From Zeus faber (Eukaryota; Chordata; Actinopteri; Zeiformes; Zeidae): a DNA stretch of 64,000 nt. This document shows positions 53,711 through 56,520 of this stretch, piece by piece; position 1 is the first letter of the stretch, and each line of letters opens with the position of its first letter. The translations under genes were made by a program, and so were the position numbers. The notes below the pieces were generated by a model that saw only the letters and a program-made list of their open reading frames with translations, was not told the DNA's origin and searched no databases. The stretch covers positions 16,049,308 to 16,113,307 of the forward strand of contig OY482854.1 in the NCBI GenBank assembly GCA_960531495.1, given 5' to 3'.

Positions 53711-54086
53711 CTGTCCCGACCTCCTGTCGGGAACCACTAGAGTTTTCCCATTGCTTCCTGTGGTGATAGTAGAGCCAAAGCGCATCCTGGCTCCAACTAA
53801 CTTGTTACGCTTGTCTCCAGATCTGTACTGGATGCTGTGACACAGAGTCCCATCATAAAAATGTCTTGTTGTGACTTGGAAGAATAATCCGTAGATTTGG
53901 AGCACTGCATTACAACCATGACTATGATACTAAAGAGGAAAAGTGTTAAAACGGAGCCCAAAGTTATTATCAAATAGAATGGAATTTCATTTTGTCCCTG
54001 ATTTTTCGCTGCATTGCTAATGTGGGTTCCACAACCTGGACAATCACAATAGCTGTTACTGAGAGCGACACGTTCCCATTGTCTTT
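53711..54086 (-). pseudogene. Orphaned, decayed variable-exon tail
   Basis: A remnant of only the last third of EC6, the membrane helix and the stub of a protocadherin variable exon. Starting abruptly at [11 protein letters not shown] it reads through TVIVQVVEP-like sequence, loses the KEAFAASD segment with a frame change, continues [10 protein letters not shown] and MQCSKSTDYSSK in a second frame, shifts again near the [16 protein letters not shown] motif, and ends VVPDRRSGQ with a still-intact donor CAG|GTACGT. No EC1-EC5 sequence precedes it. Its abrupt edge abuts the 72 bp of intron that V17 shares with V15. The simplest reading is that this is the former 3' end of V17, stranded when a copy of the V15 end was inserted ahead of it. 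Confidence 0.88.
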
Positions 54087-54087
54087 C

Positions 54088-54159
54088 ACAAGAGTATATG
54101 CATAATAAATCCACCACAACGCATTCCAACACTTATACAAGTAATTAAACATGCCTTAC
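54088..54159 (-). repeat. 72-bp intron segment copied from behind V15
   Basis: Aligns without gaps to 47131-47202, with roughly nine or ten mismatches. Both begin ACAAGAGTAT on the plus strand and end at the donor. Outside this point similarity stops abruptly, marking the edge of the transferred tract. Confidence 0.88.
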
Positions 54160-56520
54160 CTCTCTGGACGCTTGCCTTCCACCAGGGTGCACAAGAGTAT
54201 TCCCATTGCTTCCTGGAACTATAGTAGAGCCAATACTCATTCTGGGTCCAACTAACATGTACCGCTTGTCACCAGATCTGTACTGGATGCTGTGACACAG
54301 AGTCCCATCGTAGTTCATTTCTGGCAAATGCTTGGAGGAATAGTCTGCACTTTTGGAGCACTGCATTGTGATTAACACTATTATGCTGATGAGAAACAGT
54401 GCCGAAACCGAAGCCAATGTTATCATCAAATAAAACGCCACATCGTTAACTGCGTTATCACTTGGAGCAGTTTTCACATCAGAAGCTGCAAACGCCTCTT
54501 TGGGCTCCACAACCTTGACAATCACAGTAGCTGTTGCTGAGAGCGACACGTTCCCATTGTCTTTAACCAGTATGACCAGTTTATGTTCAGCCTCGTCTGT
54601 CTCTGTGAATGAGCGAAGTGTTCTTATCTGTCCAGTATAGCGGTCCAGACTGAACCGATTGTGGTCCTTAACTTCTTGCAAAGAATATAACAACCAACCG
54701 TTATATCCAATGTCGGGGTCACAAGCTCTGACTTTAGTCACCAAATGTCCTGCAGCCACATTGCGAGGAATCTCCTCCACACCTTCAGCAGAACCATTCG
54801 TTTTCACTGGATACAAGATAACTGGAGTGTTGTCGTTCTGATCCAGAATGAACACGTTCACTGTTACGTTGCTGCTTAAAGATGGAGTCCCAGAATCTGT
54901 GGCAATGATGTGGAACTGAAATGCTTTCAAAGTCTCAAAGTCAAAGGTCTTAAGCGCATAAACAGTGCCATTTGCTTCATTGATATTCAGAAAGGAGCTG
55001 ACACTGGGCACCGAATTCTTACGGTCGAGCGAATATGAAATCGCAGCATTTGAGCCCTCATCTGAATCCGCTGCGCTCACCCTGAACACCGACATGCCAG
55101 GCTTGTTGTTCTCCACCACATAGAAGGTGTAAGGATCTTCCATGAACATAGGTTTGTTATCATTGACATCCAGCACCTCTACCTTAATCACCTTAGTAGA
55201 AGACAGAGCGGGGCTGCCCAAGTCTCTTGCCGTTATCGTGACGTCATACAGGTGTGCAGACTCCCTGTCCAGGAGACCCTTGGTGATCAGAGAGTAGGAG
55301 TGTCCATCTGGAGACTGCTTCAGGTCAAACGGTAGATGGCCCGGTACACTGCAGACCACCTGCCCGTTCACACCGGAGTCATGGTCCGCGACTCCCATTA
55401 AAGCCACCACCGTCCCAGGCGGCGCATCCTCGGGGATATGTCTGGAAGTGGACGTGACATCTATTTCGGGGGCGTTGTCGTTCACGTCTTCTACCTTGAC
55501 AACCACGTTGCAATGCGTGGAGAGAGACACCGCACCTCTGTCGGCGGCCAGGACCTTAATCTCGTACGATTGCTTCTCCTCGAAATCAAGACCACCCTTG
55601 ACTGTCAGTTCGCCTGTTCTGCTGTCCAGTTCGAATGGCTCCGATGTTAATCCCCTTAGTTTAGCCCTCAGAGAATATTCAATCTCACCGTTCGCACCTT
55701 CGTCGGAATCAGATGCATTGATCCTAAACAGGAACGATCCTGCAGGTGCGTTTTCCTTTATCGCGACTGTGTATTTCTGTTTGTCACACACAGGGGAATT
55801 ATCATTTATGTCAGAAACAACAATAGTTATATTCATTGCGCCAGATTTCGGTGGTTTCCCACCATCTACAGCCGTTAATATTAAACTGTGCTGCGCGGTG
55901 TGCTCTCTGTCTAACGGTCGTTGTAATATCAGAAATGGGACTTTACCATCCTCCCCAAATTCTTCTGTGTCCATCCGAAAATACGGATTATGGCTTAATT
56001 TATAGGACTGCAAGGCATTCGAGCCAACATCGGAGTCGTGCGCTCCATCCAATTGAAATCGAGCTCCAACTGCCACCGACTCCAGTATTTCTAGTGTGTA
56101 GTTGTATTCCTGGAATTTCGGGGTGTGATCGTTTACATCAATTATTTCAATTACCACTTGGTGCATTTCCAAAGGGTTCTCCGTCACAGCTTTTAGTATT
56201 GTGAGACACGGGACGCTCTGACCACACAAGTCCTCCCTGTCTATTCTGTGATGCACCAACAAAGCGCCGTCTCCCTGGTTCACCTGAAACAGCTCCTGCT
56301 TTGTTCCGGACACAATGCGAAGATTCCTCTGCGATATTCTCCCCGCATCTAATCCAAGGTCCTTGGCTATATTCCCAACTGCTGCCCCGACCTGTGATTC
56401 TTCCTGGATCGAGTATCGTATTTGTGCTGATATTCCATCTAGGTAAATCTCCATCAACAGAGCAAGGGGGAACAGCTTCCACATCCCCAGCGACCGTCGG
56501 TCGACGTGTATTTTTCCCAT
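54160..56520 (-). CDS. pcdha: Protocadherin alpha-type variable exon V17, first in the cluster
   Basis: 787 codons from [15 protein letters not shown] (the frame is open 24 codons upstream to ATG 56592); cleavage near residue 32 (ISA|QIRYS). Donor GAG|GTAAG. The ectodomain is the most divergent in the window: EC1 has [30 protein letters not shown] and [22 protein letters not shown]3 has an extended [16 protein letters not shown]. Yet its tail ([32 protein letters not shown]) and 72 bp of adjoining intron match V15. Small private changes in EC6 are [20 protein letters not shown] and [12 protein letters not shown]. As the 5'-most variable exon with a distinct ectodomain it may be an older, less interchangeable member. 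Confidence 0.93.

Follow-up and report, generated by a model that had tools for sequence, protein, structure and literature searches.

The protocadherin variable exon V17 is a chimera: its 3′ end is common to the exon V15, and its body is not V15-like. Behind its donor a V15-like intron runs exactly up to a join with a headless, frame-broken relic of an exon tail, and the edges of these pieces are compatible with one another. We consider it marginally better than an even bet that an ectopic conversion from V15 overran the exon and rejoined without homology to the old EC6 of V17, stranding the old end. We infer that the relic used to be the end of V17 itself, that the direction was from V15 to V17, and that a single event was involved. 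The preliminary description had likewise proposed that a copied V15 end was inserted before V17's original end; the shared end with unlike body, the intron reaching the join and the fit of the edges speak for this proposal, and the tail tree leaves the origin of the relic unplaced.

The window, i.e. the whole analysed stretch of 64,000 nucleotides on one contig (G000:C10:16049308-16113307), holds part of a tandem protocadherin variable-exon array on the minus strand, within a genome of 803 Mb and 153 contigs. The comparison took in 25 exons with a common tail type, V1-V17 from the window and Vm1-Vm8 from its left flank, all of one genome, and V17 is the 5′-most of these (Table 1). Both V17 and V15 are single large exons with an N-terminal Cadherin_2 domain, cadherin repeats, a TM segment and a cytoplasmic end, and both sit in a same-strand tandem array, as clustered protocadherin variable exons do. 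Pfam comparisons found Cadherin_2 plus five or six cadherin stretches in each of V15, V16 and V17 (five in V17), and Cadherin_C_2 scores of 30.9 and 31.0 for V15 and V17, just below the cut-off of 31.5. The nearest solved chains to the array exons in a structure comparison are protocadherins. The V17 and V15 donors read as phase 0, with predicted splicing to shared constant exons.

Table 1. Features of the V17 region and other stranded tails (window positions unless marked C10)
Feature	Position	Strand	Remarks
V17	54148..56640	-	frame open stop to stop; cadherin repeats, TM, short cytoplasmic end; donor GT 54159-54158
EC5 to mid-EC6 block of V17	54571..54965	-	homogenised among exons, not V15-specific
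V15-like 3′ end of V17 (late EC6, TM, cytoplasmic)	54160..54570	-	from tail identity and tail tree
V15-like intron, 72 bp behind V17 donor	54088..54159	-	89% to 47131-47202
Join, V15-like intron / mid-EC6 of relic	54086..54092	-	2-3 bp common bases and one unexplained G
Relic1, tail (late EC6, TM, cytoplasmic)	53711..54086	-	frame broken twice, no head, donor GT at 53710
V17-V16 intervening sequence	53073..53709	-	relic donor to V16 ATG, 638 bp
V15 3′ end and first 72 intron bases, presumed source	47131..47743	-	from alignment and genome search
Relic2, left of window	-33127 to -32394 (C10:16016180-16016913)		late EC5 to cytoplasmic end, ~76 bp behind Vm7 donor
Relic3, L029, other subcluster	C10:15679710-15680482		~860 bp behind donor, 88-96% to neighbouring tails, broken frame
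Relic4, L030	C10:15732010-15732243		~210 bp behind donor, 85.5% to tail of exon in front

A V15-like end on an unlike body

An ungapped alignment of 54088-54700 with V15 (47131-47743) shows 94.9% identity. Over the tail (54160-54570), identity to V17 reaches 96.8% for V15 and does not exceed 86.6% for any of the other 23 exons, whereas the EC1-EC4 body of V17 is only 55.3% identical to V15, within the range of 53.8-56.8% across the other 24 exons. Accordingly, the tail tree unites V15 and V17 (support 100/99) while the same clade is rejected for the body (p-AU 0.001), a conflict that marks ectopic exchange between the two exons. The body identity and the clade test also rule out V17 as a duplicate of a sister exon V15. 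The V17 body branch is the longest of 25 (0.87).

This likeness extends into the intron, with 8 mismatches in the first 67 bases, and a search of the whole genome with the initial 72 bases of the V15 intron hit V15 and V17 only. The V15-specific tail and the 72 bp of V15 intron that had been ascribed to V17 are thus borne out (96.8% and 89%), but the V15-specific signal cannot be traced to the start of the aligned stretch. Sites private to V15 and V17 in the final 820 bases of the exon all fall at 54316-54470 (13/13). The two exons have no mismatch at 54557-54650 and 12 at 54651-54722, and the block 54571-54965 of V17, 89.6% identical to V15, is 81.5-90.6% identical to all 24 exons. Since the private sites end at 54470 and this block is common to the exons, the 5′ edge of the V15-like tract can be placed only at 54471-54650, i.e. 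no better than within 180 bp.

Donor-anchored intron likeness between exons with unlike bodies was seen in only three pairs, V8/V9, V11/V12 and V15/V17. V8, situated between V7 and V9 (V7-V9 at 22043-30984), carries a V7 body (99.6%), a V9 tail (99.8%) and more than 360 bp of V9 intron, and looks like an unequal-crossover hybrid. V12 is a V13-like exon (body 88.3%, tail 95.4%) with an intron start that is V11-like for ~75 bp (V11 and V12 at 34642-40805).

The relic behind V17 and its join

All or most of 53721-54092 matches the tails of the 17 window exons (17/17) at 73.0-75.7%, and no EC1-EC5 head was found next to it. The relic lacks 22 bp, 1 bp and 6 bp relative to the exons, its last (cytoplasmic) block is open in phase 0 up to the donor, and this donor reads CAG|GTACGT with its GT starting at 53710. 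The preliminary description was therefore right in placing directly behind the junction a decayed tail that starts in mid-EC6, lacks EC1-EC5 and keeps a good donor. Relic1 differs at 30 of 222 columns that are invariant in functional exons, where a left-out functional exon differs at 0-11. Changes that could be scored by codon (n = 29) comprise 22 nonsynonymous and 7 synonymous ones, against a potential of 192:26 and a sum of 25:20 in functional exons; the relic is near neutral, with a nonsynonymous share slightly under the neutral one (P 0.05). With its broken frame and lost constraint, relic1 is a decaying pseudogene, perhaps with some functional divergence before the decay began. From its donor to the V16 ATG there are 638 bp, and 8 of the 10 spacings from V16 to V6 measure 509-894 bp. 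No other copy of 53080-53710 was found in the whole genome.

The phylogeny of the segments, which had been put forward as a check, recovered the V15+V17 clade in the tails and did not place the relic. Relic1 has the longest of 27 tail branches (0.36), and its position is not fixed; the best tree pairs it with V14, unsupported. A grouping of relic1 with V17 to the exclusion of V15 is rejected (p-AU 0.0007), and with it the idea that the relic is a recent copy of V17's current tail; relic1+V16 is weakly rejected (p-AU 0.039). These tests bear on a tandem duplication, in which slippage doubled V17's tail with the 72 bp, after which the front copy went on exchanging sequence with V15 and the one behind it decayed. 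Besides the rejected grouping, V17 is the least relic1-like of the 25 tails (73.8%, in a range of 73.8-77.0%), and the bases behind the relic donor are absent among the best matches of the 72-bp intron, so that we hold this origin to be very improbable. In its favour, a relic1+V15+V17 clade is not rejected (p-AU 0.27), which leaves room for a duplication older than the V15/V17 exchange, and relic4, close behind an exon whose tail it resembles, may be a short-range duplicate.

At the join, 25 of 25 exons read CTGGTTAAAGAC and the window reads CTTGTGAAAGAC. The bases CTTGTG at 54092-54087 are not typical exon sequence, as 25/25 exons have CTGGTT, and CTTGT matches the V15 intron. We therefore assigned CTTGT to the V15-like intron and let the relic proper begin with AAAGAC at 54086; a longer microhomology at the join was dropped on the same grounds, and the remaining 2-3 bp are too short to weigh. 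No V15 intron beyond the 72 bp was found behind the relic, and an insertion of relic1 into a longer V15-like intron was discarded for this reason. The start of the relic is equivalent to ~54566-54570 of V17 and lies inside 54471-54650, where the V15-like tract begins, so the fit of edges noted earlier holds. A single EC6 break point lying at both edges would be expected to give this fit, although the interval is 180 bp wide.

The apparent ages of the two parts differ, with 30/222 changes in relic1 against 8/67 in the V15/V17 intron (P for equal age 0.023 for all sites, 0.075 for nonsynonymous sites only). The relic thus appears somewhat older than the V15/V17 intron divergence, which speaks mildly against any single event (P 0.02 to 0.08); either V15 and V17 were re-homogenised later, or the event was not single. 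An older relic would suit a transfer in the reverse direction, with V17 as the source and V15 receiving the tail and intron once the relic had formed. However, this would require the copy in V15 to end no more than a few bases from the intron/relic join of V17, where nothing is known that would stop copying, and we give this direction scant credence.

Other stranded tails in the locus

A search for head and tail families across C10:15.53-16.16 Mb, scoring 150 of 166 and 150 of 178 first-look candidates, yielded at least 130 Cadherin_2 heads and, with pieces merged, at least 130 Cadherin_C_2 tails. Two of the tails listed lack a head; of two heads without a listed tail, one is next to a run of 5,000 N, and for the other tblastn shows a tail. 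Relic1 and relic2 came not from this search but from sequence comparison, which covered 184 kb around the window (5,000 N within) and L029-L031; decayed tails elsewhere may have escaped. Together, the family search and the sequence comparison revealed four stranded tails and zero stranded heads. This bias does not by itself favour copying, since a stranded head keeps its promoter and could be harmful. The tails do not share a regular spacing of 72-76 bp behind a donor, an idea dropped in view of the ~210 and ~860 bp of the others. Other decayed exons of the array include a relic left of Vm8 (window -39249 to -38479) with EC1-EC2 and a tail, in which no middle was found, and, in another subcluster, a fully decayed exon (L030, C10:15728976-15730627) together with an exon that is now divided over two overlapping open frames (L031, C10:15817988-15820466).

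V17 and Vm7 are the two exons for which a borrowed intron ahead of a stranded tail was tested. Relic2, behind Vm7, has a broken frame, keeps the donor AAAGTAAG and differs at 10 of the 222 invariant columns. The ~76 bp of Vm7 intron align weakly with the introns of Vm7's own family (scores 16-18; 99% point of the null 17.5). At family-diagnostic sites, relic2 keeps 0/3 at the 90% level and 0/1 at the 100% level, while ten members of the family, each left out in turn, keep 4/4 or 4/5 (100% level). The grouping Vm7+relic2 is rejected (p-AU 0.0005), and the ten-member family with relic2 is not (p-AU 0.09). On this sequence evidence, relic2 does appear to derive from an exon other than the Vm7 in front of it. 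Vm7 is not a second chimera like V17, its body being 90.0-94.9% identical to its own family. Both relic2 and relic3 suit leftovers of a deleted neighbouring exon; relic4 may have arisen in this or in another way.

Because the tail behind Vm7 suits the loss of a neighbour, deletion is a serious rival for V17 too. It would require that V17 and V16 were formerly separated by a complete exon, that V17 had earlier gained a V15-type end and intron by conversion or unequal crossover, and that the intron at +72 was then joined to the neighbour's mid-EC6, removing the neighbour's promoter and EC1-EC5. Deletions are ordinary events, and similar layouts exist at Vm7, where ~76 bp of intron precede a tail that starts in late EC5 and comes from outside Vm7's family, and at relic3, which starts in late EC5 ~860 bp behind a donor. 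Neither relic2, set apart from Vm7's tail, nor relic3 needs copying, which counts against a pasted V15 end. For V17, however, deletion needs two unrelated events including a separate V15/V17 exchange, leaves to chance that the exon with the stranded tail belongs to one of only three pairs with like introns and unlike bodies, and makes a coincidence of the relic start falling inside the 180-bp interval of the tract edge. We regard it as quite possible, though we lean against it; its probability and that of the overrunning conversion are judgements and were not computed.

A proposed conversion that overran its exon, and known systems

The conversion from V15 is preferred here since it accounts by one event for the foreign tail, the foreign intron ending at the join and the compatible edges. 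Such an event would begin when V17 broke in mid-EC6 and the repair invaded V15 inside the EC5-EC6 block common to the exons. The repair copy would then pass through the V15 TM/cytoplasmic end, the V15 donor and 72 bp of V15 intron and reach a stretch without remaining homology to V17, after which end joining would connect it with the opposite side of the V17 break. V17 would in this way receive a V15 end, complete with working donor, ahead of its own end, which, displaced, would lose its function and decay. This presupposes that V17 had no homology to the V15 intron before the copying, which we infer; the 72 bp of V15-like intron are themselves observed. That V17 has the longest body branch and relic1 the longest tail branch fits a single lineage, though the effect is inflated by decay.

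Ordinary conversion leaves only its homogenised result visible. We see an even chance that the array holds a fossil gene conversion that terminated without homology, with the donor end ahead of the recipient's own end. If so, the V17 join would tell which donor a single germline conversion used, in which direction it ran, how long its tract was and where it left, details that are normally erased: the surviving copied end, the intron overrun and the displaced end would make direction and exit step readable. It would also reveal one way in which exons exchange their ends and dead tails build up. If deletion is the right reading, the locus combines a commonplace exon loss with a commonplace conversion.

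In zebrafish protocadherin clusters, Noonan et al. reportedly found in 2004 that gene conversion acts regionally on the 3′ ends of variable exons. Among the titles and abstract openings searched, which took in few subscription papers, a stranded protocadherin tail behind a converted exon is undescribed, and none of the words pseudogene, truncated, relic, partial or unequal appears in PMC4978886. In fugu, gene conversion is the published cause of alike 3′ halves of protocadherin exons, and the accessible part of that report describes, as at V17, a 3′ half homogenised among paralogous exons of one subcluster and a divergent 5′ half (PMC1852091). What it describes there is homogenisation, whereas a copied end that enters the intron and a stranded old end are features of V17. 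Mammalian cells have been shown to copy past homology and then to rejoin with the second end by microhomology, according to the portion of the study available (PMC5104497), with homologous invasion, copying beyond homology and second-end rejoining with microhomology or added bases as the points of likeness. That system is a cut reporter in cultured cells, whereas the V17 case is read from one old join in a germline array. Anole protocadherin clusters contain 14 pseudogenes, half of them with single-nucleotide indels, in the sections available (PMC2764143); they share with the V17 locus the presence of dead variable exons among live ones, whereas at V17 a headless tail lies directly behind the donor of a live exon, a layout on which the anole sections are silent.
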